A stretch of DNA of 64,000 nt, from positions 28,024,001 to 28,088,000 of the forward strand of contig OX467082.1 of assembly GCA_950106755.1 (NCBI GenBank), read 5' to 3'. Position numbers and translations under genes: made by a program. This DNA is from Climacium dendroides. Its lineage: Eukaryota > Streptophyta > Bryopsida > Hypnales > Climaciaceae. Of this stretch, positions 13,216 through 41,894 are shown piece by piece. The number at the start of each line of letters is the position of its first letter. The stretch's first letter is position 1. The notes below the pieces were generated by a model. The model ran no database searches, was not told where the DNA came from, and worked only from the letters and a program-made list of their open reading frames with translations.

Positions 13216-13229
13216 TCTCAGGACTGGAG

Positions 13230-14637: not shown

Positions 14638-15019
14638 GATGGAGCTCTCAACCGGGTGTGCCGGAAGATGGCACTAACCAACCGGAATGCCATCTTCCGG
14701 AGGACGGATGCTTTGATAACGGCGGAGCAACAAAACGGCCTCCTCATTGAAGAATGGAAGAAGTTGGTGATGGAGCTTGGAACGTTGCGCGTAGAGAACC
14801 GGACGTTGCAGGACCAAGTCCGGGACTTAGAATCCAGATGTGTGGATTTGGAGAGCACTCTTCGTACAGCCCAGGAAACGGCCCGGCTCACAGAAGAGGA
14901 CCATCGCCGGCAGATAGCGGCCCTATGTCAAGGAATAGTTCGGCTCCGGAGCTCTTTGGACGTACCGGCGGATTATATCAACAAAGCCCGACTGTTTGAA
15001 GCTAACCTCGATGCAGCCG
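14638..15019 (+). pseudogene. Alpha-a LTR-encoded protein, second segment
   Basis: Continuation of the alpha-a frame after CACTA-1: GALNRVCRKMALTNRNAIFRR, a long heptad-like stretch rich in E, L, R and Q (predicted coiled coil), then DYINKARLFEANLDAA. It is cut at 15019 by the alpha-b LTR. No stop codon lies in this piece. In uninterrupted relatives the next residues are ASSSRVPIVKCLLEQAK. Confidence 0.8.
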
Positions 15020-15308
15020 TGTGGAAATGCGATCCCACATGCTAGACCCATAATACTAGCATAGGACGGAAAAATTCAAAAATTGTCTCCTTTAGAGGGA
15101 AAGATTTTGAGTTCTCCTAGGAAGTTAGGGCAAATTAGGAAAATCGGATATCCAGATCTGGAAAAATTTCATTAGGGCTAAAAACCTAAAATCCGGAACC
15201 TTAGAAAGTTCCGGAAATCGGATGACGGCGCCGGCCCTAAAAACCGGAAACCGGATCTGTACTAGGGATAGGGTTTTGCCGCCAAAACCTGTCCCGTACA
15301 TCGGGCTA

Positions 15309-15317
15309 GTATAAGAG
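15309..15317 (+). promoter_or_regulatory. Putative TATA box of alpha-b LTR
   Basis: GTATAAGAG, conserved as GTATAAGAA in alpha-d (42727-42735) and AATATAAGAA in alpha-c (minus, about 59629-59638). In each it is followed by ACTGTAGCC- or ACTATAGCTGG-like sequence, a C/T-rich leader, and the protein start about 200 bp on. This places the LTR-encoded frame downstream of the probable transcription start, that is in R/U5 rather than U3. Confidence 0.55.
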
Positions 15318-16474
15318 GGGGACTGTAGCCGACCGTGGGCACACTTATCTTCTTTCTTTTGTTCTTCCGCCGGCGTATTTCATTTTCCTCGCTTTGTTAG
15401 AATTCCGGTAGATTAAGGGACTGTGTGAGTTGCGATCGTGCAGGGGTTACCGGAGTGAAAGTGGTGAGCAGAGATTTAGGGAGAGATTGTGTGAGGATTG
15501 TTCGTGAGCACAATGGCTTCTAGGGCAAGCCGGCGGAAGTTGAAGGATCTGCCTGAGGATTTGGAGGACGAGATGCCGGCACCGGCACCCCGACCAAGGA
15601 CCATTCCGGTGATGAAGGTGGTTCCGGAGGTTCCGACGGAGGAGGACCGGCTGGCGTGCCTACGGGAGCATCTCCACAACATGGGGTGTGACGGACTCCT
15701 AGAAGTGCCGTGGGGGATCCGAGAGGAGAGTCTGGTTTTGGACATACTTTGTCCAGAAAGTGGTATCTTGGATACCACCATTCGGATGAAGCCAGACCTG
15801 TGGATGGTGAACACTTGGCGAGCCGTCTACAAGTTCCGGGAGGCGCCGGACAAGGTCATGGAGAAGAACCAAGAGGTGATGGAGGGCGAATTCCGAGCAC
15901 CCGCCAACCCGAAGGAAGGTCACCAGGTTTCCAACCTGGTGAATCCGGAGTACCGAAATGTATAGCGTTTCTTAGCCCTATTCTCCATCCCACCAAGCCG
16001 CGGCGAGTAGTAGCGAAGGTGGCCTCCACCATCTTGGGGAGCCTCCAGGAAAAGATGATGATGGATTGGGCAGCCATCATCCATGAGCTAGTCGGAGACT
16101 TGGTGTGTGCCCTCCGGTCCGGAAAGAAGAGCCAGAGTCCTCTTCCGGCATATTTGTCTCATTTGTACGCCCACCACTCTCTGCTCAAGGCGAACGAGAA
16201 GAGTGCGTATCATGACCTAGTCCAACTCCAGCAGTACGGAGGAGAGGAGCCCTCGCCTCGAGACGGACCGGACGATGAGGACACGGAAGAAGAGGAGCCG
16301 GTCTCTCCGCTAAAGAAGAGGAAAAGGCGGAATAGGACGTCGCCGGTAAGTCCGTCAGAGGAGCCTCCCACACCGGAACCACAGGAAGAGGTTCTGGAGG
16401 TAAAGACGGAGACCAGACCTGTCCCGAAGGGAGTCCAACCATCCTTGCAACTGGTTGGGCCAGTACGACCGCAC

Positions 16475-16479
16475 ACCGT
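16475..16479 (+). repeat. Target site duplication ACCGT (left) of beta-1
   Basis: ACCGT precedes TGTGACAACTC at 16480 and follows TGTTGCGACA at 37465 (37466-37470). A 5-bp duplication is the usual LTR-retrotransposon integration footprint. The alpha frame resumes directly after it. Confidence 0.9.
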
Positions 16480-16761
16480 TGTGACAACTCATATTTTTTT
16501 TTTTTATTTGTTTACCTTTTTGAGCGAACCGGAAATTAGAAATAGGTATCCGGATTCATCTAAAGAGAAAGATAAAACCAAAAATAGTCACAAAAGGACC
16601 TTACGGAACTAATCCGGTTTTAGGTAGAAGCGGAACGGATTAGACTTCCAACCGGATAGTATCTCCAACCGGAATCTCGTTAACCGGATTGGAGAGAACT
16701 GGATGTCAAGAATCGGACCGGATATCCGACCGGTCATAAAGATAGTCCAAGGCGTCAGGAC

Positions 16762-16770
16762 TATATAAAG
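16762..16770 (+). promoter_or_regulatory. Putative TATA box of beta-1
   Basis: TATATAAAG in the context CAGGACTATATAAAGCCT. Beta-2 has CAGGACTACATAAGGCCT at the same place, a weakened version. The protein start is about 290 bp downstream. Confidence 0.5.
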
Positions 16771-17809
16771 CCTAACCCTGCCCATTTTCAGGTCTCTAGA
16801 TTTCCACGTGTTGTCGTGTCCTGATTTAGCGCCTGACGTTTTTATCGTTGACCACGGCAAGGAGAGAAAGTACAAGAGGGTCCGGAAGTAAGTGAGGGGT
16901 GTGAGACGGAGAGATCTCCTCCGGACATGAGTGTGAGAGATTGAGAGTGTGAGCACGCCAGTAGGTTAGTTTACAAGCGGAGCGGAACATCTGAGTGTCG
17001 GCGCTCCTTTGTTAGGACTGTAAAGAGTGAAAACCGGGTAGAGCTACCCTCATGCCGTGGCTGAACCAAAAGAGAGGTTCTAACACCTTGCCCCTGAGTG
17101 AAGTAAAGCTTAGAAAAGTGGTTCCAGTCATGCCGACCAAGGAACCGGAACAGGGAGAACTCAGAGAGGATTTATCGTTGATGGGTTGTCAAGGGTTAGC
17201 TTTGAAACCTTGGGGTTTCAAAGATGAGAGGATGATTAAAGAAATCCTGAGTGGCGTATCAAATTAGTTCGATAACACCTTGAGAGGGAATCCGGTCCAA
17301 TGGACCGAGGCTTTGTGGCGGGACGTATACGGATTCTGGCCAGGAAGACTTGGGCTTGCCAACCGAAAGGATGATTTCGTCCAGGGCAAGTTCGGAAGCG
17401 TAGTAAACCCGAAGGACGGCTACGCGGTAGAAGACTGCCTCGATGACCGGGAGCGATGCTTGCTCCAATTCCTGGTTCCGGTTCTGCATCCGGAAAAGCC
17501 CACCAAGGTGACTATCATCCTAGCTAACACGATCTTCGGAGCGCTGAGCAGAACCCGGAAAGTAGACTAGGGCCGGATCGTCTTTGATCTGGTGTCCCAA
17601 CTTACTACAAGAGTGGGGAGAAGTAGGGCTACCCCACTGTGCCCTTATGTGTACCACCTCTACCAGCAACAAGAACTGCTGACGGAAGTGGAGCTAAAGG
17701 TGTGGAAGGCCTAGGAGCGGACCATGAAGTACGGAGAATCCGAGTCCGACCAAGAAGCAGATTCCGGAAACGAAACCGAGGAGGAGGAAGAAGAAGAAGA
17801 AGAGGAGGA

Positions 17810-17812
17810 ACC
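17810..17812 (+). repeat. Target site duplication ACC (left) of CACTA-2
   Basis: ACC lies directly before CACTAGAAGAAAAA at 17813 and directly after TTTTTCTTCTAGTG at 35904 (35905-35907). Confidence 0.9.
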
Positions 17813-18109
17813 CACTAGAAGAAAAAGCAGGATTTTGCGACTACGTTTTGTGATTGATTTGCAGTCGTATCAGACGTTTGCGACTTAGTGATATTCTGGA
17901 GTCCGCAGTCGCAGTGGACAAGTCGCATGAGTTGCACTGCAGTCGCGAGGATGTTTGTCATTCGATAGGCAATGGAGAACTTCGTCGATGAACTGCTGTG
18001 ACGTGGTTGCTGATGTGGTATTCACTGCCACGTAACTACATTTCACTCACTTGTGACTTGTTTTCAACTTGTATGCGACTTGATTGTAATTCGTCTATAA
18101 CTTCAATGC

Positions 18110-19460
18110 CACTACTATGCAACTTCATTTGAACTTCTGGTAGACTTCATGCAACTTCTGTGCAACTAGAATGCAACTTGTTTGAAACTTTAGTGCAATT
18201 GAAATGCAAGTTCTTTGCAACTGGAATACAACTAGAATGCAACTGGAATGTAATTATTTGCACTCCTATGTTCCAACTCTTGTGCAACTGCAATGCAACT
18301 TATTCCTACCTTTCGGAGAACTGGATTGCAACTCACTTGCAACTCCTGTGCAACTAACATGCGACTAGTTTGCAACTCCCGTGCAAGTAGAATGCAACTT
18401 CAATGCAACTTATTTGCAACTCTTGTTCAACTAGAATGCAACTTCAGTGCAACTAGAAAGCAACTCATTTGTAACTCCTTTTCAACTATTATGCAATTCG
18501 TTTGCAACCTCTGGGCAACTTATTTCCAACTGAAATGCGACTTATTTCTAACTTCTGTGTTACTAAAATGCAACTCATTTGCAACTCCTATTCAACTATA
18601 ATGGAATTCATTTGCCACTTTTGGGCAACTAATTTTCAACTTCAATGCGACTTATTTTCCAGCTTCTGTGCAACTGAAGTGCAACTAATTTGCAACTCTT
18701 GTACAACTACAATGCAACTTATGTCCAACTTTCATTGCAACTCCTGTACGACTAGAATGTAACTTCTTCCCAACTTTGTTTGCAACTCCTGTACAACTAA
18801 CTAGAATGCAACTTCTTTCTTACTTTTATGCAACTCCTGTACAACTTGAATGCAACTGATTTCCAACTTTTTTGCAACTAGGATGCAACTTACTAGAATG
18901 CAACTTCTTTTCAACTTCTGTGCAATTAGAATGCAACTTATTTCCAACTTCTATGCCACTGGAATGCAACTTCTCTGCAACTCTTATTGAATTGGATTGG
19001 AACTTGCTTGCAACTCATTTGCAACTCTTATCAAACTAGAATGCAACTTATTTGCAACGTTTTTGCAACTGGAATGCAACTTCTGCGCTACTGGATTGCA
19101 ACTTCGATGCAACTGGAATGCAACTTGTGTACTACTGCATTGCAACTTCTGAACAACTGAAATGCAACTTCTTTGCTACTGGAATGCAACTTCTGTGCAA
19201 CTAGAATGCAACTTCTATGCAACGAGAATGCAACTTCTGTGCAACTATAATGCTACTTCTGTGCAACTAGAATGCAACTTCTGTGCAACGAGAATGCAAC
19301 TTCTGTACAACGAGAATGCAACTTCTGTGCAACTATAATGCTACTTCTTTGCAACTTCCGTACAATTGGAAAGCAACTTGTGTGCAACTATTATTTGCGA
19401 CTACATTGTAACTTACTTGCGACTACATTGTCACTAACTTGCAACTTCTATCTATGGTAG
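18110..19460 (+). repeat. Left subterminal array of TGCAACT motifs (CACTA-2)
   Basis: Dozens of copies of TGCAACT, usually spaced 10-20 bp, in phrases such as ACTAGAATGCAACTTCTGTG. Frames through it give MQLxCN-type repetitive peptides and are not genes. At the other end of the element the same motif is present in the opposite orientation (AGTTGCA), as expected for subterminal binding sites of an En/Spm TNPA-like protein. Confidence 0.9.
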
Positions 19461-19748
19461 TCTTCTCAAAATCTCTGCAACGCACACAACAGCCTTACAC
19501 TTCTTCTATAGAACTCAAATATTACCCTTCTACATCTTATTTTAATTTGTTTACAAGTCTTGCAACACTCATGTAACTGACTATAACAATGCTAAAAATT
19601 CGATGTGGCTTACAATACTGCCATTTTTTACAAAACAAAACAACTACATGAAATAGTTATAAACCATCGGCACACACAGTGTGCACATGCTGCAAACAAC
19701 ATTCGTAAATGGTTCAATGTCTTTCAAATACATCATTGATCATGATCC

Positions 19749-22475
19749 CTATTTTCCGCCAACCTTCCCTTTGCAGTCTGAAGGAATTAAACCAGCAACA
19801 CTAGCAATGACTGCTATGTACTGTTCTTCCCAGATTGTATTTGCACCCACCACATCTTTCAATTTATATTCATCTCCATTAGGATTAGGATGCATTAGAT
19901 CAACAAAAAACCCTGGTGCATGAGCAACGTCAAGCCTATACCATCTATCCGGAATAGGTTGTCCATGGTACATTTGAGGGCCTGCACCACCACCTACACT
20001 CGTGATAGTTCCTGATGCTACTATTTGCTGTGGGGCTGAAGGATTTAGAAGTGAGACTCGTTGTCCTATTACAAACTGCACCACATAAGAAGAAATCAAA
20101 AATATTCTTAAGAAAAAGTACAGAAAAAAATTTGTAATGATAGAAAAAAACCATCTACAAAAGGACATTGTGAAAGTTCTATACATGTGTTACTCACTTT
20201 GTGTTTGTTTGGAGATTCCACATTTCGGCGTCGTGTAGGTTGCATCTTCATCCTTAAGATTTCCTTCTTCGCTGCAGGCTTTTGCAACTACATACCACAA
20301 TCACAGTCAGTGCATCCACAAAAATTACAAGCACAAAAGAATTCATAGTAGTCTTTTCAAATTCAAATCACTTGTCTTATGCTTTTCTCTCTCACCTCTC
20401 GATCCTTCCCTCTTCTTAGCCGTGAAGAGATGGAACCTTCATTGACAAGATTCTGCGGGACTTCATTAATGGCGGTATTACTATTCAGTACCACTAAGTC
20501 AACTTGAGCATCAGTGGTGCCTTCAACATCTCTCACTTTTCGTTGTGGACTATCGTGTTCTTCCATTCCAACAATCTCTTTAGTGGTCTGTTCACCTTCT
20601 CCAGGCTCCAAGGTAGAGTTCACTATTAACTCATCTGGATCAGTACTCGCATTTATCTCTTCTCCTGTTGGGTGAGTAGGCTGTATACAAGCAAAGTCAT
20701 ATGGATCAATAACGTTGATCTCTCCAGTAGCTACAATAGGGTCTACTAGGTTGGCAGCTACAACAGGATCCACTGAATTGACAATGACAACAGGATCTGA
20801 TGTTGTCTGCTTTAAAAATTTCAACAACGCTAACTGCATCCCTTCAACAGCCTTGGTATTTCGATCTGTACTTGCCAACACATCAACTCGAAAGTCTTGA
20901 AATTCATCAAGTCTTTGTTCCAAAGCCATCACTTTTGCATGGAGTGAAGAAGATACCACCTGTGTTTCACATACAAACACAAAAAAATAATTTAACATGT
21001 TCATATAAGGTAAGATTATTATGCGACTTCTATGCAAGTGCTATTGAACTTCAAGTACTACACTGAACACTTAACTATTGTTTACAACTTTTATGACTTG
21101 TGCATGACTACGATAACATATTTTTAGATTGTAACTTATGAACAACATTTTAATGAGTACTCTACAACTTCTATGAGATTCCTACTCACAAAAAAAAACG
21201 AACTCAAATGATGAAGCCTACTTACCGATGACCCTGAAGCTTGCAATCCTTCTGCAATGTTAGTGAGGCTAGGACTTCCTTCACTCCCTTTTGTCTAATA
21301 GAAGGCCAACATTTCTTTATTTTGTTAAAATGATTTGGAAAGATGATACAAAACATTCACAAATTCAATTGCACAAACACTATGAAAGTCAACAATTTGC
21401 ATGAAAAATGGCTGACCACATCATATTCTTCCCCTGCCTTCCCTCGCCGCCCACGTTTAGAAACATTCTGCACTTTTCTCCGGGCATTGGTCATCATCTC
21501 AGATTTCTTCACTTGATCACCTCCACTCCAGTATTCCTTCAACTGCTTCCACTGGCTAGGGTGAATACGCACTGGACAATCGTCATCTTTTCCTGGAACA
21601 CATAATTTCTTCAACTTATGCCTCTCATTCTTCAAAAACCTTTGCACTGCGTTCCGAAAACCCATGTTGCTAAGGGGATTTCCCAAATATTCGAACTCAT
21701 TATCCATGGTGTCCCTCAACTTCTGTAAAGTGTGGGGCTTGTGTTCACTCCAGTCAATGACGCTCACATCAAGGATCAAAGGGGCAAAGGCCCTCATACT
21801 TTGATCCCAAGCACTCTTCCCGGAAGAAGATGTATCAATCTCTCCATTCAAATTCACATGCACTACACTTGGTTTCTTCCCAATGTCACTTCTAGCTTTT
21901 GATTTCTTCTCATACTCTTTCTACAATTGGCGCCTAGTAGAACGCCCCATACTATCTGACTGCCCTTTGCATGCAGTTGATTGTGAAGGAACCCTAGCAA
22001 CTTCGGATTCAACCACAGCCCGCTCCGGTTGTGGCACTGGTTGTCTTGTACCCTGACCACAAGGAAGCGTAGGATTCACAAGTCTTGCACATTTCTTCCT
22101 ATTACTCAAGGCTTCCTCACCATCATCTTCGCATTCGTTGGCTTTGTTCCCTGCAAGACAAGAGTATAATACCATTAGTATTGTTTGAATTTAGAATAAA
22201 TATAGAAATCAAAGTCAATTTCCATATAACCTTGTATTTTCTTGAAAGGAAATTCATATCTATAAAATTCATCAAAACTCACCATCTTCATTGATGGAAG
22301 AGTTAGATGTGTTGGTCTCCTCTGAAGTGGACATGTTATCTTCGTGGCTTGCACCTACATTGATAGCCTCTGTGGCTTTGTTGTCGACTCTTGTATTCTT
22401 ACGAGTAGCCAACGGCTGAAGTTGAACTTCACGGTCCTTCGTACGCTTCCGCTTTGAAATAGAAGCTCCACTACA
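19749..22475 (-). pseudogene. CACTA-2 TNPA-like (Tnp1/Ptta En/Spm) gene, about 6 exons, one in-frame TAG
   Basis: Minus-strand exons with GT..AG borders seen by eye: about 22475-22290 (basic start, donor GTGAGT); about 22160-21418; about 21292-21225 (donor GTAAGT); 20967-20385 (donor GTGAG); about 20265-20195; 20075-19749. The second holds a module like the plant Ptta/En/Spm transposase family (Transposase_24): FLKNERHKLKKLC, PSQWKQLKEYW and NARRKVQNVSKRGRRG. The fourth starts with a coiled coil (LHAKVMALEQRLDEF). The last resembles the TNP1/En/Spm domain (Transposase_23): NPSAPQQIVASGTITSV. A TAG near 21923 splits the second exon. In En/Spm, TNPA binds the subterminal repeats; here the adjacent TGCAACT array is the obvious candidate target. 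It is encoded opposite to TNP2. Confidence 0.72.
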
Positions 22476-22479
22476 AATA

Positions 22480-25400
22480 AACTAGCAATTTCATTAGCAA
22501 AAAATGCAAAGCACAAATACACTTGTCAATGAAACTGCAGGAAATTTCCAATACTACAATAACACTTCAGCTGGAACACTAAGTTGCAACTACTTTACAA
22601 AAACACTACAATTACATTGCAACTAGAATGGGCATAATTTGTAATTGCATTGTCACTAATTTTCAACTTCATTACAACTATTTTGCATCTACGAATTGGG
22701 ACCTACATTGCAAGTACATGACAAGTACACTACAACTACTGTGTAATTTCAAGAACTTAACCACCTACTAATGCAGAGCATTATTTCATTCCTGTTAGTC
22801 CTTTCCAAACAAATGCAAAAAGTAATCAGGATCTGGACATTATGACCATTAATAGCAGCCGGATTACAACGTATATTGGGAAAGGTGTAGCTCGATCATT
22901 TTTTCCTAGTTCAAATACAGACGACGACCGAGTTCTGAGAATGCGTCGATTAACTTGATTCACAACAAAATTTCCACAGAGAGGATAGTCTCATAGGAGT
23001 ACAAGAAGACTATAGCGAACTCCAAGTTCCAATTTCTAGAGAGTCTCTTACAATTCCTTTGCTGCTTCTTCAATTGGCTGTATGGCAGCAGCTAGCTCCG
23101 CTATTCTGGCATCTCGACGCAATTCCATCTCTGTCTTCTGATAGTCACTAGAAGCCATGTCGTCCAAATTCTACTGACCTGCATCCAAAGTCGTACAGTC
23201 AATGTGAGGCCACGAAAGGGAATTCAATGCAGAATTAAAATTCATTGAACATTGAAGACGAGCACAACCTGCAACAAGCTGCAGATGAGAGGACCACAAC
23301 TTGCAAGTGAAGGCAAGAAACGAAAGAAATTCAAAAGTATGTTGTTCGAGAGATGAACCTATGAAATCGTAATGCTTCTGTGCTCACGTTTGTACAAAGC
23401 TCAATTCTGCAACTCACGAAGGTGTGGAACGCAACTGCAGCCAAGAAAATCACCTCATGCCAACGTTGTCCTCCCCTGTACATATAGAAATGACGGAGTA
23501 CCAAGATCAGACGTTCCTCAAGAGGTTAATGAGGTACCTCTGAAAGCACCGTAGCCTCATGCACAAAACACAGTCGGTATTACTCTCTCCGCAAACGAAA
23601 TGCAATGAAGCTCCAGCATCACTCGTAAGCTGATTCCAATTCTTTCCACAGAACTTTCCAATTCCTCTGGGAGGTGTGATTCTGAACCCAGTACCTCGTA
23701 CCCTCCAATTCCTCTAGGAGGTGTGATTCTAAATCTAGTACCTCATACCTTCGAATAGAACCCTGGAATTTGCGATTGAAAGTAAAATGAGATCTTACAG
23801 TCACCACAGATGGCACGCAACTTTACGCAGAGCAGAAGCCGACTGCTCCACCCCAAATCTAGCGCATGAACCATACAATATTGTAGTCCATGCCTGAGAT
23901 GTTAGTAAATACCATGAATTAGAATTTAGCATGTGTAAGCTGCAGAAGTAAGGCTGTACTTTTTTGATTTCAGGAATCAATGCTGAAATGGTGCTGTCTC
24001 TCGAACGAAAGTATTATAGAGAACAGGGGAAGGCATTGAGGGTCAAGAGGCATGTTGTTGCAACTCACGACGAGACCTCCTTGTGCATGCAGCTTCAACA
24101 TGCGACAACAGCGGAGCATGGGCGTATCTACTCTTTTTTTTTGCTTTTCTGTGTTACTATCAATGTGTTACTATCAAACTCTTTCAGATGAGTACAAGAC
24201 AGAGCGGATGATTGCAATAACTAAGAAGAGAACAGAAGCGGCATCCAGTATGTCCCATCGGACGTTGCGGCTAAGATGCCAAACGAACTTGTGGAAGAGA
24301 GAGAGAGACGATTTCAGGGTGAATTCCAAACGGGTCTGATGCAAATGAAGCACAAGAGGACACCTCGTAACAATTCGTGGCTCCATAAAAACGAAAACTG
24401 AAAACCATATCTCTGGCAATACAATTGCAAAGTATTCCACGTTACATTGCGGCAATAGAAGGTGAAGTTCGAATGAATGTGGTTAACTTACCTGAACCAC
24501 GGGACAAGAAGTCTCTTTCAACGATGCTCTCCAATACGGAGACGAGGGTGCTCACCGATCTGTAGCAGCAATCAAATACAAGCGGAAACCCTAGAAGATA
24601 GAGAACTCCCTGATATGCTGAGAAAGTAAGAACTGGACTTCACAAGCGAGAACTCCCTGAAGCTCTGGAAAGCGAGAACTCCCTGAAGTTTTGGACTATA
24701 GCGACCTCCCTGAAGCTTTGGAAACCGAGAACTCCCTGACGCTTTGGAAAAGCAATACAGAACCCCAGCAAAAGCAGAGAACGATGCAACTGCAGCCCAA
24801 AGAAAGTGGCGGCAAAACGAGGGTTCCGAATCAAATTGCAGGCCTGGATCGTTGATACGTCACCTCCTACCTTTGACCGTGGCCGTGCTCGTAAGCCCGT
24901 GTTCTAGTTCATCCGTGTCACCAAGTCGCACGCGTTCTAGTATCATCTCGTAAACTAGTAGCCTAGCTATCGCTCCACGTACATTCATTTCTGTTTATCA
25001 CATGAAAGTACCTTATTAGGTGGTACTCTATTCAGGCAAACCAAAATGTTCAGGCAAGACCGAAGAATTTATAACTGGATAGCCTCGACTCCCTTGAGAG
25101 TATGCTTAGTACTCCTTAAGGAAAACACTTTGTAGTGGGATGAGGGCTCACCACCAACTGGGGATTGCAATTGGGCAGGCACAAGAGTAGTAACAGTGGA
25201 GAACAAAAGCGTAGAATTAATGTTTGGACAATGGAAGAAGTAGGTGCTGCGATTGGCAGCCATCAAGGGCAAGGAGGCTCACCATGGATCCAAATCTCAC
25301 AGAGAGGATATGGTGCTCAGCAGAAATGCACAAATCTTCATACTTCATTTGGGCGGTCGTAAAATTATATCTTCTCGGTCTCCTTCCATTTTGCGCAGCT

Positions 25401-25500
25401 CTTAATTCTGAAGGTGAAGGTGTCTTACTCTTAGCCTGACAATTGTGTAGTTTTGAATTAGTATTATTTTTTCAATGGAAGGATGAACGTCACTAGGATG
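22480..25500. other. Spacer of CACTA-2 between the TNPA-like gene and the LRR fragment
   Basis: Scattered TGCAACT/AGTTGCA-like words at 22560-22740; an imperfect 48-bp duplication at about 23655-23760 (AATTCCTCTgGGAGGTGTGATTCT, twice); and a short tandem repeat at 24598-24750. Open frames are short and without recognisable domains. It may contain further decayed captured sequence that I cannot identify. Confidence 0.4.
24598..24750 (+). repeat. Short tandem repeat, unit about 26-28 bp, 4-5 copies
   Basis: The phrase GAGAACTCCCTGAAGCTTTGG (and variants with GATATGC, GCTCTGG, GTTTTGG) recurs at about 24600, 24648, 24667, 24700 and 24728. Non-coding, inside CACTA-2. Confidence 0.65.
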
Positions 25501-25536
25501 AAATTTAACAACAATGTCGATGACGGACCTATGCAG

Positions 25537-26996
25537 GATTTGTGCTCGCCGACTTCCGAAATAATGTCCTAGATCCTGGCAGAGTGCTCCGCAGCTGGAA
25601 TTATTCCGATGAATCACCTTGCAAGTGGAGAGGCATTGTTTGCGACAATGTCACTAACCATGTCATCAGAGTGTACCAAACCCGTCATACTTCTTATATC
25701 CTGCTCGTCAGAAATATTAAATTGTTTATGAATATCAAATGAGGTTAGATGCATCTTGCTGAATTCAAATGTGTACCTGATTCTCTTTGTTGTGCACAGA
25801 AACCTGCCAAGATCTCGCTTGAGTGGTACGATCAGTCCTCAGCTCACAGAATTGTCCCAACTGCGTCGCTTGTAAGCCTAATCATCATATCATGTTTGCA
25901 ATGTAATGAAATTGGTGCAACGCCATTTCTTCAGAATAGCACTCCAGTTTTTTGGATTGTACTTTCTTGATGGCTGACCTTGGGAAGACAACATTGTGAC
26001 AGGGGCCTGCACTTCAACAATCTCACTGGCGTTATTCTGTCATCGATTGCAAATCTAAAATACTTGCGGGCCCTGTGAGCATTTACAATTCTAACCTTTA
26101 GGCACGGTTGAAACATTATTGAAAACAAAATGGCCATTGACTGTTGAGGTTCTTGCAAGCAGGATTCGTTAATCTGAATTGTCACGTGGAAGATAATTCT
26201 CCTATTACTATATTGCAGGTACTTGCACCAGAATAACCTGACGGGATCATTACCTGGTGCATTAGGTGTCATGCCGGCTCTTCGAATATTGTGAGTTTCT
26301 ACGTTCCCATGTATCTTAAGTGCTGCTGCTCCTCGTTTGCACTAACTCTTGTTTGCCATGGCAAGCTCTGAAGACACTGGCAAGTTCACAGTGAAGCATG
26401 ACTTCATTTGTCTCGTTATTAATTGAATAAAAACCCTAAAGCTCAGACGAAATGATAAGTCTAATTCAAGTTCCTTCCTAACTGCTTGCGTAACTCCCGA
26501 AACTTGCTAGAGATGTTTCGGGAAACAAGCTGGAGCATTCCATTCCAGCAAGCTTTGCTAGCATGACCCACCTCAAGTTCTTGTAAGCAACGTCCCCCCA
26601 TTTCCAAAATGCATATTTTTAGTTTGTGGATAATGTAGTTCATTTCCTTGTTTACATGCCAATGTTAAAGTGTTGAACATGAGCAATTTAAAATTGAGAC
26701 TTATATATTTTGTTGAAGAAAACTTAAATTGGAGAGCTGCTTTGCTGACTTTACTAGGAACTTGTCTGACAACTTGCTCTCTGGAGAAGTTCCAGGTGGA
26801 GCTATGCTTCATTTCTCAGCATCCTCGTAAGAGTCTCAACCGTTATAGCACATTTTAGGATGACATCTTTCAAGATGCTGCTGGTGTGGAGATTGTAGTA
26901 TGCTCATGTTACATTCTTGTGGTCACATTACAGCTTCGCAGGTAACAGTCTGCTTTGTGGGAGCTCCTTGTTGGGCTTGCCTGGGTGCGGAAAAGG
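25537..26996 (+). pseudogene. Captured LRR receptor-like gene fragment (ectodomain exons only)
   Basis: Six exon-like blocks with GT..AG borders: 25537-25674 (LRR N-cap: RVLRSWNYSDESPCKWRGI, VCDNVT); about 25996-26066 (FNNLTGVILSSIANLKYL); 26218-26290 (YLHQNNLTGSLPGALG); about 26510-26582 (GNKLEHSIPASFASMTHL); about 26755-26826 (SDNLLSGEVPGGAM); 26932-26996 (FAGNSLLCGSSLLGLPGC). One leucine-rich repeat per exon of about 72 bp and a NSLLCG-type C-cap are typical of plant LRR receptor-like proteins. No signal peptide exon, membrane segment or kinase domain is visible. Retained introns show copying at DNA level. The first exon's donor is weak and no complete frame exists, so it is not a functional receptor. 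Exact family not assigned. Confidence 0.75.
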
Positions 26997-27209
26997 TCAG
27001 TCCTCTTTCCTCTGAACAGGTTTGCGTTTGCCTTGGGTTTAGAACAAGCACAATCTTCTGTGTAGTACTGTTTGACAGCCCAGGCAGCAGATCGCTGCAG
27101 CTCTGCCACTGCCTTTTGATGGGTCTGGAGACGATTCACATTTGTCGTAAAAGTGACGGTGCTAGCACCAATGCTCCTGTCACTGACATGTAGCTGTGTT
27201 CCAGCATAT

Positions 27210-28743: not shown

Positions 28744-28749
28744 AAGATG

Positions 28750-30480
28750 AGTGCAGTCACTACACACAATCATACGACCGTTACATAAACTGAAGTTCGG
28801 GAAGCATCAAGAATTGGATAGGAAGAGCATGTTCTAATCACAGGACCTTGTTCTTTAGCATGTGGTTCCTTTCAAGATGTAGACCTTTGGTGATGTCTGC
28901 TACCGTGAAAGTAGACCTTTGGTGATGTCTGCCACCGAATTACCTTATTGGAGTGGAAGCAGAAATAGGAATGAACTCAATGTAGCAGCAATTCAATCGT
29001 AAACCAGGTAACGACAATGAAGGAACCAGTGTTAATCTCCCGATGCAGCTTCGAGTGCTTCCCACACGTAGACTAAAAAATTCTCAGAACCGTGCTAGTA
29101 AAGACACAGCATTCGCACGGAGAAGATGTAATTACCTAGTTCATCCTTCAAGAGCTGCAGTTTGTGCAGCTCACTTTTCTCCATGGTGTCCAACTGACAA
29201 ACCTATGAAATCTACACAAATGTACCAAATTCAAATATTAAAACCACCAGCAGCTGGATTAGATCTCTGCTTTAAGACAAGGAATACAGTGCACATATAC
29301 ACACACAACGTAAAAACAATTCGAATTTGTGCTTCTCAACGTACACGGAAACGAATCACGTCACAAATAAACACTTACAAACGATTTCACAAAGTACAGC
29401 AGACACGATTTAGCTGAGAAAGCACCACTTCAGAGCACAAGGCTAAGATACTCCTTTTTTTTCCTAAATGCAGATTACAACAGCAGGTAAAACGTAGAAA
29501 TGAGAAATAAGTAGGCAATAAAAGGACATTATGTACAGTAGATAGAATGGAATTATTGTTACTCCTATCTTGGAAGTCACATAGAAAGCAGAATGTCGAC
29601 TGACCTGCTTCGAAATAGTAGTGCAGACTTCGCTATGTGGTTCATTTCGTACATTGTAGGCAGTGCTCCAAGAAGACAAGTGAACACAGGCTCGGAGAGG
29701 GTATCTTTCCTCAATAGTATCCCTTGACAAATTTTGATTTCTGGAACCCTCAGACATCTTTCAAATGTAGCGGAGGAAAGGCACACGGAAACAAAACACG
29801 ACACAAAGCAGGTACAAACATTAAACACACAGAAAATGAAAACGAAGCATCGGGAAAATTGTGTGAACGCTTCCTTGAAGTTGAAAATCAAGGGAACAAG
29901 TTTTTCAATCTTCAATATGGCGGTATGTGACCTCGTAAAAAGTATGCCCCAGGAATGGAGAGGTTCCGATAATGGGAGAGGGAGAGGGTGACAAATTTTG
30001 ACAAAAAACGGTCGTTTCAATACACAGAAGACTCAGTTTCTAAGGTAGGATGTTACACTTTGTGCCTCCAGTTTACCGTTCAGTGATCCCAACGGGAAAC
30101 CTTCTGTCATGACACATGCTCTCTATCGAAGCCACTCCCCGTCATGAAAATCGTGTCGGTAGAGGATGGAAACTGTGGACAGAAGTCGCCCCACTTCATC
30201 CATTCGTAGTTCTAGAAAGCAAAACTGGAGAAGGATAGAAAGCCATTTGCTCGAGAAGTTGTTGAGGTATGTACAGACTACTTCACAGTTGGAAGGCGTT
30301 GGTCTACGTAGGCTACAGGAGTGACTGAAATGTCTCACCAACAGAAGAAGGTGAACAAGAGTACTTAGTTTTCATGTCGTATGACGATGATACTCTTTCT
30401 TTTGAAGATTTTGGTTGTATTGGAGAAGGTTTAGGGTTTCTTCTTCGTAACCCTAATTTAGTCCATTTCGAGGATACAAG
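28750..30480. other. Spacer of CACTA-2, no recognised gene
   Basis: AT-rich sequence with short open frames. A small duplication GATGTCTGCYACCG with GTAGACCTTTGGTGATGTCT occurs at about 28881-28940. A minus-strand stretch around 29640-29750 (RYPLRACVHLSSWSTAYNVR) looks gene-like but I could not place it. The 5' leader of the TNP2 gene probably begins in the last 300 bases. Confidence 0.35.
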
Positions 30481-32399
30481 TGCATTTTGAAACTAATTTT
30501 AGTTCCTTTGCGACATTGGAAATTTTGCCAAAGTGGGATGGATAGAGAAGACGACTACATACAAGTCACAGATGAGAGGCGAAAGCAACTACGTGATGAC
30601 AAACTTTGGGTGAGAGAATATCGCCAAGCTAGGTTTTTAAATTTGCATAGAATAAGTTGTCTTTGTTGTAAATGTCAAGGTCGCAGGAAGTGGATAGTTC
30701 CCACTGTGAGGGAACATCTAATCCGAAACGACAGAGACTCAAAATTTCGAGTGTGGCGAGGATCTGGGAGTCCGGAGACATCAGACGAAGAATGGAAGGC
30801 TGGTTTTTGGAACTCAACAGCAGGTCGAGCAATGCAGGTCGATAATCAAGTGGACACTAGGAATATGCTGGACAATTTATTTGAAGACGTTGAAAACTCA
30901 GAGCCCATGGAGGAACGGCTCCATGACATAGAGGGCATGGAAGAACGCTTACATGACACAGTAGTGGAAGCCTTTACAGTAGCAGACAATGTAACCAACG
31001 CATGCAACTCTAGACCAACTGTAGGTGATGACTTGGAGGTCGAAAATGCATTGCCGCAGGAAGAACCGGTCGGTGATATAAATGAGCAAGCAGAAGTTCA
31101 AGGTCAAAACAATTTTGATGCCGACATTTTGGAAGAGGCTTTGCATGAATTATATGAAGGTACTCAATGTACGAAGTTGGCAGCCACCATCCTTATCATG
31201 AACGTGTGCACTATCCATGGGGTGAGTAACAATTTTGCTGATGAATTATTCACTCTTCTCCAAGGACACATTTTGCCACAGAATAATACGTTGCCTAGGA
31301 ATTTTTATGCAGCTCAAAGACTAACAGGCAAATTAGGATTGGCTTACAATAGCATCCATGCATGCGAAAAAGGATGTGTACTGTTTAGAGGAGAACTTGA
31401 AGGTGCTATAAGTTGTCCAAAGTGCAATCGTCCAAGGTACAGGGATCAAATTAGAAAGAAGTTTCCGTTGAAAGTTTTGAGGCATTTCCCTATCATTCCA
31501 AGATTGCAACGCATGTTTCGTAGCCCAGCTCTCTCGAAATTGTTGCTATGGCATTTGGAGAATGGAAGCAATCGTCCAGGAGGAGACAATCTAGTGCGTC
31601 ACCCATGCGATTCAAAAGCGTGGCGCCACTTCCATGAAAATGTGGATCCAACCTTCAGTGAAGACTCGAGAAATATCCATTTTGCTCTTGCTGCAGATGG
31701 AGTAAATCCTTTCAAGCAGAGTCGTTCAAGTTGGTCTACTTGGCCAGTGACCTTGCTAAATTATAATTTGCCGCCTTGGTTGAGCACCAAAATTTTTTTA
31801 TGATGTTAGCTTTGTTGATTCCTGGAAAGCAATCTGTAACTTCAGAAGTATTTAATGTGTATCTGGAACCCTTGGTGGATGAATTGCTGGAATTGTGGAA
31901 AGGAGTGCCAGCATATAATGTTGTACAAGAAGTTGGTGCCCGCTCTTTCAACCTCAGAGCAGTTCTTATGTGGACAATTCATGACTATCCAGGATATGGC
32001 ACAGTAGGAGGATTTGCGCACCAAGGCTATGCAGGGTGTCCATGGTGCGGTTCTGATTTAGGAGCAGAGCATTCAATGGAGCTATGTAAGGAAATTTATC
32101 AAGGGACTCGCAGATGGTTGCCTACTAATCATCCTTACCGCTCAGAGCGTATGAAGGATCACTTTGATGGAAAAGTGGAAGTGCGAGGAAGACCCAAAAT
32201 TGTATCTGTAGAAGAACAGTTGGAATATGCAAAGCAGTATAAGACTTGGAAAGCAGCAGGAAATAGAGACGGAGCTCTAGGGGATCCGTCCAAATTGCAT
32301 AGAGTGAAGCGGTCTAGCATTCTTTTCAGGTTGCCTTATTGGAAGGTGAGTTGTAGTAGTCTTTCAAGTTGAATGACTAAGTAGCAAACTTGTAGTACC

Positions 32400-32650
32400 A
32401 TTACAGTGTCAAGAAGAATGACAATGGATTACTTGCATTTCAGTTGTATTATAGTCGCTTATCAGTCGTATCTTAGTTGCACATCAGTTGTACTGCAGTC
32501 ACATATCAGTTGTGTTGTAGTCGCATATCAGTTGTATTGTAGTCGCGTATCAGTTGTGTTTTAGTCACATATTAGTTGTGATTTAGTTGCATAGCAGTTG
32601 TATTTTAGTCGCGAACCAGATGTATTTTAGTCACATGTCAATTGTGTCAT
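32400..32650 (+). repeat. Intron-1 repeat of TNP2 (CACTA-2), unit about 21-22 bp
   Basis: Repeated phrase TATCAGTTGTATTGTAGTCGCA and variants, roughly eleven copies, inside the first TNP2 intron (32346-32851). AGTTGCA and AGTCGCA words resemble the subterminal motif of the right end. Confidence 0.75.
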
Positions 32651-33789
32651 ATTCGTTTTGAGATGCTTGTAAAGAGCGTTTGCAATGAACACTAAAGTGC
32701 CTACATTGTATTAGAGTCTTGTAGCATGTTGTTTGAGAGAGAGATGAAGTGATAATAAAAGCATTTGGTAGGGAGATGTACAAGTGAATGTGTCTTTCCA
32801 TGTCCGTTGTCAATCCCATACTAACTACTCGAAGGCTATTCATGTGACCAGAGGCTTCTCATTCGCTATACACTAGATGTCATGCACTGCGAGATGAATC
32901 TTGCCAAGAATTTCTTAAAAACAATAAGTGGAAAAAAAGATACGGTGAAGGTGCGACGAGATCTTCAAAGGAGAGGTATACGAAAACATTTGTGGTTGAT
33001 ACCAAATCCTCGTAGAGTTGGTAAAATGTTGAAACCTGCTGCTGGGTATGTGCTCTCTGAGAAAGAGTACGAGCAATTTGCAGACATTATTGACTCTGTG
33101 AAGCTTCCTTCAGGATACTCCTCATCATTTGGGAAGCATATAAAGGCTAAAAAATTTAGAAGCCTCAAATCGCATGATTATCATGTGTTAATGCAGCAAT
33201 TGATGCCATTGGCATTGAGGGGTCTATTGAAACTCGGACCGCGTATGGCCATCATGCGGATTTGTAAAGTATTCAGGAGAATATGTACGAAGGTTTATAA
33301 CCCAGCAGACTTTGAGTCTCTTCAATTAGATGTGGCTGAAAGTATGGCACTACTAGAGATGGAGTTCCCACCGTCATTTTTTGACATTATGACACACCTT
33401 CCATATCACCTAGTCCAAGAATTAGACTTGTGTGGCCCTGTTAGCACAAGGTGGATGTATCCAGTTGAAAGGTATATGAAAACATTGAAGAATTATGTCT
33501 GGAGTATGGCTAGACCAGAGGCTTGCATAGCAGAAGGGTACTTGAAGGAAGAATGCCTTGGCTTTGTTACAGAGTATTTGCAAGGATTTGATGTTGTGAA
33601 GAGGCGCGTCTAGGATGCAGAGGAGGAATTTGGTGATGCTGAAGAAGTTCTAGAGGGTGCGGGTCGACAGTTTGTAATGTCTACTGCATTGCGGGATGCA
33701 GCACATAATTATGTACTGAACAATGTTGCCATTTTGGAGCCACTTGTGAAGTAAGTTGCACTATCCTGTTCATCTTTTATAATCTGATT

Positions 33790-34030
33790 AGTAGAACGAA
33801 GATATGCAAGTTCAATGCAATTGGTTGCAGTAGCAGAGATGGAACTAGAATGCAATTGGTTTTAATAATCTTGTGCAACTGAAATGTAACTATCATGCGA
33901 CTATAATGGAACTGAAATGTAACTATCATGCCACTATAATGCAACTATCATGCAACTATAGTGCAACTGAAATGCAACTATCATGCGACTATAATGCAAC
34001 TAAAATGCAACTACCATGATACTACCATGC
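33790..34030 (+). repeat. Intron-2 repeat of TNP2 (CACTA-2), TGCAACT type
   Basis: Within the second intron (33752-34147), phrases ATGCAACTATCATGCGACTATA recur about ten times. The motif and orientation match the left subterminal array. Confidence 0.75.
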
Positions 34031-35289
34031 AACAATAGTGATTGTCAGGTGTCTAGGGATGTCTTGGTGAGCATTTGTAGTTGTATCTAATTAGGCTACA
34101 ACAAATTGTAACAATGTTAGTTTTAACTTCTTTCACGCACTTGTAGTAAGTGGAAGGAGGATTGTCAAATGGATTCAAGCACCGCACCACTTGATGTGTG
34201 GATAAAAACAGCTGTTCGCAACAGTGACATTGATGCACACAGTCCTGAAGATAGAGATAGGATATTATTATCCACAAAACCATCGCAAAAGGCACTTCGA
34301 TATTCTCGTATGAAAGCTTTTGGAAACCATTTCAGGGTGGATGACGACGCATCCAACCAATTTCAAACATACGACTGCGGGGTTGCATCTGTGTTCCAAA
34401 TTCCAGCTTCTGATCTTCGAGATGTGTCAGGTCACTATGTTGGAGTACTAAAAGATATTTTGAAATTAGACTATGGGTCTCTTAGCACCCCTGTGATACT
34501 AATGCAATGTGAATGGGTGAAGAAAACAGACAATCGACGAAATGCAACATACATTCGAGATGAGGCTGGTTTTCTTGTAGTGAACTTCCGCCACAAAATG
34601 CGTATGATGCTGGATCCTTTCATATTTTCAAGCCAGGCAACCCAAGTGTTCTTTGCTGATGATGTAAGGAAAGAAGGTTGGAAAGTAGTATTGCATAAAG
34701 AAGCTCGTGCTCGACGACAATTTGTAGACACATCAGATGTATTCGTGAGTACCAATATACAAGCTTCTGGTTTAGCTACTCCAGAGGATGTGCCTCCTCT
34801 ACCTATTGTTCCATCTTTGGTTGGAGCTATAGAGTTATCTGCAGAGGATAGTCTCTTAGCATGTGCAAGATATTGACACCATTTATTTCCAAGAAAATGG
34901 TGATTTTTAAGTTTGAAAGTTTCTTTGTATGTTGTATCCTTCATTTCAAATAGACTTAATGCACTATCGCATGCAATTGTTTGCCCTCTATTAAAGAAAA
35001 AAGCGAGTAGAAATGAAGTGAACCTTTATAAATTATAGATGAATAATATCACAGAGGCATACTTATTTGATCTTATGAAGTGTGCAGCTTGAATGGCTCT
35101 AAACCAGCTTCAAATACAAAAATCATAAGTTGCATCTCATAGTGAACTCATAGTAAACTTACAATGACAATTGTCTACCAAAGTAAGGATGCAACTACAA
35201 CTCATACGAAATAAGTACTAAAGCATTTTGACTAAGAACTCTAACTATCTTTGTTTTGTAATCAAACTATAGTCATTATGTTGTTGAAT

Positions 35290-35640
35290 TTTAGTCTAAT
35301 TGTAGCCAAAGTCTACTTCTTCTGTAGTGGAACCGTAGTTGTTTTTTAGTTGCATTGCAGTCTTCTTGTAGTTGCACTGTAGTCATTTTCTAGTTGTATT
35401 GCAATTGTTCTCTAGTTGCATTTCAGTCATTTCTTAGTTGCACTATAGTCGATTTTCAGTTATGTTCTAGTTGCATTGCAATTGATTTGTAGTTGCATTT
35501 GAATCGTTTTTTAGTTGCACTGTAGTCGGGTTCTAGTTGCAGTATAGTTGATTCCTAGTTGCATTAGAGTCATTTTTGAGTTGCAATGTTGCCGTTTTTA
35601 GTTGCAGCGTACTAATTAGTTTGTTTTCTGTAATTGGAGT
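35290..35640 (-). repeat. Right subterminal array of AGTTGCA motifs (CACTA-2)
   Basis: About fifteen copies of TAGTTGCA, TAGTTGTATTGCA or close variants. On the minus strand they read TGCAACTA, so left and right arrays are inverted with respect to each other. The right array is shorter and less regular than the left one. Confidence 0.85.
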
Positions 35641-38600
35641 GACTACATTTTTCCACGGTGGACTCCACTTCGTCGATAGTTGCCTACATGGACAACTGCG
35701 ATGAATATTGGATGTAGAATACCTCCTGTCTGTTCTTCTGTCACAGTATCGTAACCCTACTCTTCATTTTCCAACTACTTTGCGACTACAACTACATACA
35801 CGTCAAATTTGATGCAAATACAGAGGGCTACAGTCGCAGTACAGTTGTATAGGACACATAGTCGCATCACAGTTGGTTGCAACGGACACGTTTTTCTTCT
35901 AGTGACCGTATGTACCTGCCAAGAGGCAGAAGACCACGCCGACTCGGAATCGAGGAACGCCCCCGGGACATCCGCGTCCGTGTAGAGGGGAGACTCCAAT
36001 CGGACCGGATGTGGCATCCGGATCGGGAACCAGAGATCCATTCGACGAGTTGGTTGGAATCCTCTGTGGAATTCGGGCGGATTGGGAAGTTAAGAAGCGG
36101 ACGCTCGGGGAGATCGCGGAATTAATCGGAGCGGAACCGGACAGTTAGTTGCCGCAGAAGGTAGCTAAGAGTGTTATCAATCCGGATGAGCTTCGGAAGA
36201 TGAAGGAGGACAGCAAGCGGCAGCACGATGAGGTGGACACCCTCAAGGTTGAACTTTTCGCGTTGCTCGAGAACGCCACCGCGACAAAGGAGATGGCGGA
36301 GGAAATGAAGAAGTTGGCCGCAGAAGTGAAGGACGTGCTTGGAGGGCCCGGAGCCACGGTCACCAAGGCACGCCTGTTCGAAGAGGAGGTGCACAAGGAC
36401 AAGAAGATATCCGGAACGAGGGTGGTGCACATCCTCACCGATTTTGAGGAGCAGATGGAGAAGCTCCTATCCAAGGCACGGGAGTCAGCGGATCGGATCG
36501 TGGAGAGCAGCCAGAAGTTGACAGAAGTTCCGGTCCGGCTCTCTGAAATTTCTGTTCTGGACTTGTTTCCGGAAGACGTAGCTCATGAACCGAGAAAGGA
36601 CAAGACGCCCCAGTCAAGTAGGGCAAAGAAGGAGACGCCCTCGACCGGACATCAGTCGATAGATTTAGACTCCCCGGAAACTGAGGAAGATCACCCGGCT
36701 CTACCTACGGATGGGGAACGGAACCGGAATCTAAATGAGGTCTTCGAGCAGTTGGAGAGACCTGATGAGAGCCCTACCATTGGATCCCGAGTGTATGAGA
36801 CGAAACAGAAAGGATTGTAAAAATAGGACTTATAGATAGGAACCGGAATGGAATCCGGTTAGGATAAGATAGGACCGGATTGTCAGCGCCTTCAGAGGCG
36901 GAAATCATGTATTCACTTTTTGCTTTTTGCTTTTTGTATATAAAACAGTCTCTGAGCTGGAGACGGGGAGGAGTTGTTTTGGCATTTCCTTGTGTACTTT
37001 CCTTTAAACTAACTTTTGTGTAATTTTCCCGAGTGTTGGCATAGAGTCACGGAAGGAGTGGTGGGCCTACCACTTTCAAAAGCAAGCGGTGAACCCTCTG
37101 ATGGTAAAACAGAGGTAAAACTAAACCGGGTACGGAAGGGTGGACCGGATCGGATCCGCCCAGGAGGGTACATAGGACCGGAAGTTGCAGGGTCTAGAAT
37201 TCAGAAGTCAGTCCAGAGACCGGGGAACTAGTGAAACCGGAAGTGGGATACAGTCCGATCGTAGTCTTCCGGTTGGTGTTTGACATTCCGGTCGTCAGAG
37301 GTAGAACCGGAAAAGTAGAAGTAAAGGGTTTAATTGGGTTTATCTCCTTATTAGAGTTAGCTACTTCACAGGATCTCGTGGGTTCGATCTTTAGGGTCAT
37401 TTTGTTATGCTCTAGGGTGATTTTTGTGAGTATAATAGGGAAATTGCTTACTCTGTGTTGCGACAACCGTCGCCACTCAGGCCGAGGCCGGACCCTCCCG
37501 GACCCGGATGATAGAGACAATGGAGAGGGACCGGACCACCATGCGATTGGGAGGGTCGCCCCTAGAAGACATCCAAGAGATGGCTCAGTATCTGGTATGG
37601 CGGGCAGACGATCTCACCCAGATCTGTGAGAACTATGATGGAGCCCTCAAACGAGTGTGCCGGAAGATGGCGCTAACCGACCAGAACGCCATTTTCCGGA
37701 GGACGGATGCATTGGTGGCAGCGGAGCAGCAGAACGACCTCCTCATAGCAGAACGGAAGAATTTGGTGACGGAGCTGGGGACGTTGCGCGTAGAAAACCA
37801 GACGTTGCGAGACCAAGTCCGGAACTCAGAATCCCGCTGTGTGGATTTAGAGAGCACCCTCCGCATAGCTCAGGAGACGGCCCGGCTCACAGAAGAAGAC
37901 CATCGCCGGTAGATAGCGGCATTGTGCCAAATTGTAATTCAGCTCCTGAGCTCTCTAGATGTGCCGGTAGATTATATCAACAAGGCCCGGCTGTTTGAAA
38001 CTAACCTCGATGCAGCCGCCAGCTCAAGCCGGGTTCCTATCGTCAAATGCTTACTAGAGTAGGCAAGACAAATGGATACATCCCGAGCTGCGATGAGGGA
38101 AATGATGGAGTACTTTATTTCCACGGAGTCGGATCCGGCACCTCAATCTCCCCCGTCAACGCAGACTTTGGTGGTTTCAGAAAGCAGCGATCTAGAACCT
38201 ATGGTTACAGAGGTCTTACTGGTGGTACCGGTGAATCCAGAACTTTCACCACCAACCGGAAGACCAGAAAGAGTGGACTGGGGAGCAGTGGTACCTCCGG
38301 GAAGTGAAGACCTGTTGCCGGTGACTCCGACCATTGACCTGACAAGTGCTTCTCCAGAAATTCACGCCGGACGGACGGTGCAGTCTTCTCCACGTCATAA
38401 GAAGACTCAGAAGGATGCTCGAGGGAGTCCGGACATTCAGGTAGTCGGGACCCGGAGTGTAGACAAGGACACCAGTATTGTGGAAGTCCCAAGATGGGGC
38501 CAAAGGGGTCCGAATCTGTTTTCTCCGGAGAGTAGCCGGAAAGAGGTAAAGCTGGATCTTCTGAAGGACTATGTTCCTTCCAAAGATCCGGATTCCAAAG

Positions 38601-39358
38601 ATCCGGATTCCAAAGAATAGTATGCAGTAGTGTAGTATAGCGGCAATACCGGAGTCCGGCAGTCAAAGCCAGAAAAATAGGATTTGGAATTTTCCGGAAA
38701 TCTAGCGGAGCAATAGGAATGTTTTGTAGGATTTTTAGGATTACGTTAGTCTTAGTATAAGTAGGACTTTTAATGGCCTTTCTAGTCATTTACAACCATC
38801 TCATAGTTTCAGCATTGTATTTTTTTTTGAGCTTAATTGTAAAGTGTTTGGAGTACCCAATCTCTTATCTTTATTGTGTATGGTATATGTTTGTGAGAGG
38901 TGTGGGTCCGTTCTTGCGTTTCCGGAACTGAGAACTTATCTTGTGTGGCAAGAGTCGATTTTGTGAGAGTATCCGGATGTATTAACTTGAGGGGGAGATT
39001 AACCGGATGGTTCCGGCAGTAAGGTTAGTGTAGTACTGCTCGAATGCCGGTATAGCCTACGTGTAGGATACAGCCTTAGGTGAAAGGGGTATTTGAGAGG
39101 CTGCTAGCAACTTCGGTGTACGGGAGTATTGCCGGACGTGCCCGAATTCCGGATTGCCGGAATTCCTCGTAGAACAGAGTCAAGCCCCGGCGCAAGCCCA
39201 AAAAAGTACAGGAAAAACCACCCGGTCGACAGGAGGCTCAGTGTTCGGTTAAATGTTAGAATGTCGTTGTAGTTCTTGACCGTCCCTGTGTGACCTAATC
39301 CGAATCTTTCCGGATTTGTGAGGCGACGGAACAGGAGGACACTTTCTAGGTTAGTGTT

Positions 39359-39381
39359 AGTGAGAGAGAGAGAGAGAGTGA
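39359..39381 (+). repeat. GA microsatellite in alpha LTR
   Basis: GTGAGAGAGAGAGAGAGAG. A shorter GA run is at the matching place in alpha-d (about 60246-60262) and a CT run in alpha-c (about 52790-52800), so it is an ancestral part of the alpha LTR 3' region. Confidence 0.7.
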
Positions 39382-39708
39382 AAGAGAGCGTGTTTCCGGA
39401 CACGGTAAGCATCCGGATGGTGGATCTAGCCACTCGTCATCCAAACCCAGGGATCCCGGAAGGGACACTGAACGGTTTCCAGATTCTTCCGGAACCCATC
39501 CAATACTAGAATTCGGACCGGACCCAAAGTCTGGAAAAGTCTGACGGAGAGAAAAGTGAATGCTTAGATTGGGATAGCCTATAAAACTGTAATCTACAAG
39601 TCCTCGTGGGAACGATTCCGGAGCGGTTTACTCTAAGAAGGCCTTTGGTGTGAATTAAGGGCTAATTGGAGGAATACTGGTCCGACTAATCGCTACATAG
39701 TACGATTT

Positions 39709-39726
39709 TGGCGCCGCTGCCGGGGA
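39709..39726 (+). promoter_or_regulatory. Primer-binding site, tRNA-Asp type
   Basis: TGGCGCCGCTGCCGGGGA matches the complement of the plant tRNA-Asp 3' end (TGGCGCCGTTGCCGGGGA, known from Athila-type elements) at 17 of 18 positions. It lies 11 bp after the end of the alpha-b LTR. This is where minus-strand DNA synthesis would start and is the strongest evidence that the alpha unit is an LTR. Confidence 0.85.
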
Positions 39727-41880: not shown

Positions 41881-41894
41881 GCAGGAATAGGTAA

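Follow-up and report, generated by a model that had tools for sequence, protein, structure and literature searches.

In mouse mammary tumour virus (MMTV), the gene for the superantigen, sag, lies in the 3' long terminal repeat (LTR). Ty3-type elements of plants can encode an extra protein beyond gag and pol, often of unknown function, in what are called additional or extra open reading frames (aORFs or eORFs), as described in the available text of two surveys (PMC7264820, PMC6317226); the accessible parts of the former describe them as internal, in most cases between pol and the 3' LTR (PMC7264820). The VANC proteins of the Arabidopsis VANDAL transposons, according to the available portions of two reports, bind to short motifs, differing from family to family, in the elements that encode them, and take methylation away (PMC5735166, PMC10398659). 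Here, we analyse a 64-kb window of the genome of Climacium dendroides (64,000 nucleotides; positions 28,024,001 to 28,088,000 of the forward strand of contig OX467082.1, assembly GCA_950106755.1), which self-BLAST and junction reading show to be a nest of transposable elements. Comparison of the repeated copies gives good support to the presence of a formerly selected protein gene that is borne on the LTRs of several related retrotransposon families. The arrangement resembles that of MMTV sag, taken here as it is generally described, in that a protein gene lies within the LTR, in the present case possibly in the unique 3' region (U3) and with its own promoter; however, MMTV is an animal retrovirus, whereas this gene occurs in several plant LTR families, and the proteins are unrelated as far as tested. 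Unlike the plant aORFs, which lie in the internal region, this gene is inside the LTR. The eORF survey scored the position of frames relative to the polyprotein and, going by its accessible text, might not have distinguished frames located in LTRs (PMC6317226). In the open-access literature, with most subscription journals outside coverage, we came across no plant element whose LTR was described as containing a gene.

The unit that is central to this analysis, alpha, is present in five copies (alpha-a to alpha-e), accompanied by two copies of a related unit, beta, and by two related genes, gamma and delta. Alpha-b (15020..39697, plus strand) sits in alpha-a and is 3687 bp long net of an insertion at 16480-37465; the 24.7-kb span of a preliminary description of this locus is a single 3.69-kb LTR with nested insertions. 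The insertion in alpha-b, 21 kb in size, consists of the LTR-like unit beta-1 (16480..37465, plus strand; 2.87 kb net, with TG...CA termini and flanking ACCGT/ACCGT), which carries a further member of the gene family (from 17052) and is split in turn by a CACTA transposon (17813..35904, strand not assigned) with an ACC/ACC duplication, recognizable termini, tnp2 (PF02992; 30457-31803), DUF4218 and DUF4216.

On their structural features, alpha and beta are best read as having LTR character, because alpha-b is followed by a primer site and gag, because a TG start is common to two independent junctions (alpha-b in alpha-a and alpha-d in alpha-e), and because alpha-d and beta-1 are solo units with target duplications. 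Alpha-b starts with TGTGG at 15020 and ends with CTACA at 39693-39697; after an 11-nt spacer (39698-39708), there is a tRNA-Asp primer-binding site (39709..39726, plus strand; TGGCGCCGCTGCCGGGGA) that matches 17 of the 18 bases of what we take to be the complement of the plant tRNA-Asp 3' end, with a single mismatch. Across 60 dinucleotide shuffles of the window, with both strands searched, the closest site differed at 3 to 6 positions and never at fewer, and the next-best matches elsewhere in the window itself had 5. The preliminary description had reported these ends, a near-perfect primer site 11 nt on and gag beyond it, and all of this is borne out. Beta-1 has the ends TGTGA...GACA and an exact (5/5) target duplication, ACCGT; at alpha-d, the duplication is GTGT (4/4) or GTGTC/GTGTT (4/5). 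Both tRNA-Asp primer sites and LTRs of up to about 5 kb occur in plant non-chromoviruses, as far as the available text of the survey goes (PMC6317226), and with its tRNA-Asp primer site and very large LTR, the element resembles the Athila/Tat (OTA) lineage of Ty3/gypsy elements as portrayed there.

The gag gene that follows the primer site is of the Ty3 type and broken (39834..41891, plus strand), with capsid pieces and CCHC knuckles in a frame interrupted by in-frame stops. Among the Pfam families, Retrotrans_gag (PF03732) matches above the cut-off (E=1.7e-5), and Ty3_capsid (PF19259; E=3e-4) and weak CCHC matches fall below it. A search with a piece of gag yielded 19 relatives among 873 candidates, 5 of them with precomputed PF19259, and two of the gag relatives agree with relatives of the LTR protein in the length of their longest contig (283830 and 770113), which suggests linkage in other assemblies. 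Pol (reverse transcriptase and integrase) was not found in the window, in a Pfam scan of 24 pieces rather than a full six-frame search.

Several observations weigh against the assignment of alpha as an LTR. Alpha-d and alpha-e terminate in CTATAG where alpha-b has CTACATAG, and among the alpha copies, the canonical CA end is found in alpha-b only; no primer site was found after alpha-d or alpha-e; and the window contains no LTR pair, no copy with two LTRs and no 3' LTR for the element of alpha-b. The missing pair, the solo units lacking a primer site and the CTATAG ends would all fit an alpha that is some other mobile unit, or an internal region, next to a coincidental primer site, but the TG start, the target duplications of 4-5 bp at two solo units, and the position of the 17/18 site where expected and ahead of a Ty3-type gag make this explanation very improbable.

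Solo LTRs usually originate by recombination between two LTRs. Both solo units for which the two ends and the target duplications are visible, alpha-d in alpha-e and beta-1 in alpha-b, contain the gene and, therefore, the LTRs of those elements presumably carried it. These units, together with the primer site directly after alpha-b, sustain the earlier placement of the frame inside the LTR; the accompanying claim that every solo LTR carries the gene is borne out in these two cases.

The frame of alpha-b runs from the ATG at 15513 to the TAG at 38618-38620 and comprises about 705 codons without the insertion. Its 5' part (15513..16479, plus strand) encodes an N-domain and an acidic/basic linker, and its 3' part (37466..38620, plus strand) encodes a coiled coil and a tail. 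The gene is not open: apart from the 21-kb insertion, there is a frameshift near 15963, and the 3' part contains two in-frame stops. A complete frame inside the LTR is found in alpha-b, alpha-d and beta-1, in all cases disrupted by mutations or insertions. Every alpha copy in the window is broken, with insertions among the lesions in alpha-a and alpha-b, stops and the delta insertion in alpha-d, one stop in the alpha-e piece, and 7 in-frame stops in the single 622-codon frame of alpha-c (42713..44791, plus strand), a copy that consists of the upstream TATA box and the gene, with the outer LTR parts replaced; selection, therefore, acted on the ancestors of these copies.

The ratio of nonsynonymous to synonymous substitution rates (dN/dS) is low in all long comparisons: 0.19 for alpha-b against alpha-a (456 codons), 0.18 against alpha-c (568) and 0.19 against alpha-d (689); for alpha-d, it is 0.18 against alpha-a (381 codons) and 0.26 against alpha-c (508). 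Values for comparisons in reverse or over shorter stretches were 0.19-0.24, and those for the short alpha-e piece (76-77 codons) were 0.34 and 0.54; between alpha and beta, gamma or delta, synonymous sites are saturated. In each of the four gene pieces tested, the mismatches between alpha-b and alpha-d favour a single codon phase, and in the non-coding LTR, the counts by phase (25/42/32 before the gene and 73/76/71 after it) show no clustering. The beta gene shows the same pattern, with 65 of 116 and 45 of 80 mismatches in one phase, against 40/49/41 in the beta non-coding part. Judged by these substitution patterns, the frame is a real gene whose protein was formerly under selection, and it is highly probable that this selected gene was borne on the LTR.

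Divergence between alpha-d and alpha-b (compared over 15020-15512, 15513-38620 and 38712-39697 of the latter) is minimal at the two LTR termini (16.8% over the first 280 nt and 17.8% over the last 164 nt) and maximal at third codon positions within the gene (42-53%, three pieces). The LTR shell looks younger, or much more constrained, than the gene that it encloses; recombination is a possible cause.

The preliminary description placed the frame downstream of a TATA box, which proved correct: TATA box 1 of alpha-b (15310..15315, plus strand), about 200 nt before the ATG, is aligned in alpha-b, alpha-c and alpha-d. A second TATA box (38756..38761, plus strand), aligned in alpha-b, alpha-d and alpha-e, lies past the stop codon, about 0.94 kb from the LTR end; behind it, the words TGTA and TTGAGCTTAAT, possible 3'-end signals, are also aligned. 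The TATA boxes of beta-1, at 16764 and 36939, are arranged in the same way. With TATA boxes retained on both sides of the gene in the copies that cover the region, transcription of the genomic RNA may begin past the gene, which would put the gene in U3; this would be the conventional reading, and we regard it as somewhat more likely than not. Under this arrangement, TATA box 1 would be the promoter of the gene itself, the genomic RNA would start at TATA box 2, and the gene would be duplicated with each LTR and left behind in each solo LTR. The earlier suggestion of a frame that forms the first cistron in the genomic RNA is unproven. It would have TATA box 1, retained upstream of the ATG in three copies, start the genomic RNA, with the gene in R/U5 and translated before gag; however, the box after the gene is retained as well, with an equivalent in beta-1, and gag would be located behind a leader of >4 kb with a 700-codon frame ahead of it, so that we consider this alternative rather unlikely.

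Relatives of the LTR protein are numerous. One open piece of alpha-d, used as the query, hit 2 of 246 candidate proteins at E<=0.01, with 60% identity for the better of the two, and a profile of eight sequences retrieved 237 relatives at E<=1 among 4968 candidates. The best 120 of the 237 have E-values of 2.9e-49 or better and lengths of up to 524 amino acids, and none of these 120 has a precomputed Pfam domain. In prokaryote and viral collections, pattern matches were obtained in 600, 600, 112 and 12 stretches, among which no relative was confirmed (the genome of the window itself was possibly excluded). Pfam searches with the alpha, beta, gamma and delta pieces produced no informative family, only weak matches, generic coiled-coil ones among them, the best being YscO (E 1.9e-4, in one of 79 members), with a B12-binding match (0.0017) on the beta coiled coil. 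Genes located in LTRs would be masked together with the LTRs and missed, and this may be the reason why no Pfam family was found here. In structure comparisons, Foldseek found nothing at E<=0.001 in PDB or BFVD with the P0008 model and nothing at E<=0.001 in PDB with the P0060 model; with VIA-align, the coiled coil governed the result for the P0008 model; and sequence searches of PDB returned only coiled-coil and designed proteins with profiles (best E 4e-4) and nothing with alpha-d alone.

The LTR-type sequence of the window is carpeted with the word CCGGA. Its density, counted on either strand, is 6.1-24.1 per kb across 18 stretches of LTR type (parts of LTRs, LTR genes, gag and related LTR pieces), with z-scores of 2.3 to 12.9 versus dinucleotide-preserving shuffles, and 0.2-0.6 per kb in 47200-51600 and both CACTA transposons. 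Over larger blocks, there are 352 occurrences in 26,261 bases of LTR type vs 17 in 34,178, about 3.5 kb of the window being assigned to neither block. The CCGGA-rich blocks coincide with element borders. The flanking base varies with the family, TCCGGA prevailing in alpha, delta and gag and ACCGGA in beta; six Fisher tests, uncorrected and with alpha copies that are not independent, gave p 0.0013-0.037.

The predicted shape of the protein and the dense repeated DNA word, taken together, suggest, without proof, that the gene helps the element to resist silencing. The product of the LTR gene would be nuclear and dimeric, made up of a globular N-domain, an acidic/basic linker and a coiled coil; it would bind CCGGA words across the element and keep the chromatin of the element active, as VANC does for VANDAL. 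With the gene in the LTR, both solo LTRs and non-autonomous copies would supply and receive the activator. That a DNA-binding activator or anti-silencing protein acts on the CCGGA carpet is a tentative proposal, which we hold with somewhat less than even confidence. It is weakened by the dense occurrence of CCGGA in coding parts too, with equal presence in gag and the LTR genes, and the notion of CCGGA words as conserved binding sites found no support, single sites turning over as fast as other words. Both observations, along with the GC content of 0.49 in LTR-type sequence vs 0.41, would suit a carpet that is unrelated to the protein and stems from base composition, codon use, an RNA signal or ancient tandem growth; nevertheless, the enrichment far exceeds that in dinucleotide shuffles of the same stretches, the word is present in both orientations, and the top four 6-mers all contain it. 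We put this origin, too, somewhat below an even chance.

The comparison of the proposed activator with VANC has clear limits. VANDAL elements are Mutator-like DNA transposons, no sequence similarity between VANC and the LTR protein was detected, and VANC motifs, as described in the available text, occupy tandem repeats outside coding sequence, but CCGGA is scattered here over coding and non-coding sequence alike. DUF1985, sought as a mark of the VANC family, was neither among the 25 families listed, out of 35, for 79 relatives at E<=0.1 nor among any of the matches for 6 relatives at E<=10. In another explanation, which falls just short of an even chance, a real LTR protein was selected for a different role (as a particle, RNA-binding or integration-targeting accessory), and the VANC-like fold match is due to chance. 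The complete picture that we favour, a Ty3-type nest with a selected LTR-borne gene in U3 encoding a CCGGA-binding activator, is offered with some reserve, as a candidate that falls somewhat short of an even chance. Its boldest extension, unlikely as it stands, is that a class of plant retrotransposons moved a VANC-like anti-silencing gene into its LTRs, the protein binding a family-specific, CCGG-centred palindromic word found all over the element, in an LTR-borne, self-targeting epigenetic defence convergent with, or related to, the VANC of DNA transposons.

Because a gene in the LTR is present in two copies per element and persists in solo LTRs, its copy number in a genome could be far above that of gag or pol. 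Should the LTR gene counter silencing, solo LTRs, usually deemed dead remains, would be live sources of the activator, and the system would be a retrotransposon counterpart of VANC with a directly testable protein-motif pair.

The rest of the nest comprises further copies and insertions. Alpha-a is 5'-truncated (1943..15019, plus strand; pieces 1943-2940 and 14638-15019), interrupted by alpha-b at 15019 and split by another CACTA transposon (2941-14637; GAT/GAT duplication); tnp2 is present in both this transposon and that at 17813-35904. Alpha-d is a solo LTR on the minus strand (52464..59945; gene ATG at 59435), nested in the partial alpha-e (51769..60560, plus strand; pieces about 51769-52463 and 59946-60560). 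Within alpha-d are the delta unit (about 58512-54928), with the delta gene (56111..57904, minus strand), and a 228-bp CACTA miniature inverted-repeat transposable element (53467-53694; AGT duplication), whose start, CACTATAAGAAA, is shared with the CACTA transposon at 2941-14637. The possibility that delta is a third solo LTR was dropped, as reading of alpha-d by eye gave no clear target duplication. Beta-2 (62186..63998, plus strand), with the gene inside, reaches the end of the window, and the gamma gene (355..1242, minus strand) is open over 295 amino acids. A tRNA scan detected no tRNA genes.

Both CACTA transposons contain arrays: 93-bp units in tandem at 3320-4540 in the first, and a degenerate short-unit array around gcaactggaatgcaactt at 18045-19450 in the second. 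The flanks of alpha-c (42640-42712 and 44788-44900) have the same 12-bp LTR-like end, CCTGTGCTACGA, inverted on the two sides, and there is more inverted similarity in its surroundings (42323-42406 vs 45302-45384). Finally, a 0.5-kb stretch upstream of the gamma gene (1425-1942) is 87% identical to 46615-47125, beside an LTR-like piece at 44791-46600, and this shared stretch may point to an additional LTR family in the window.
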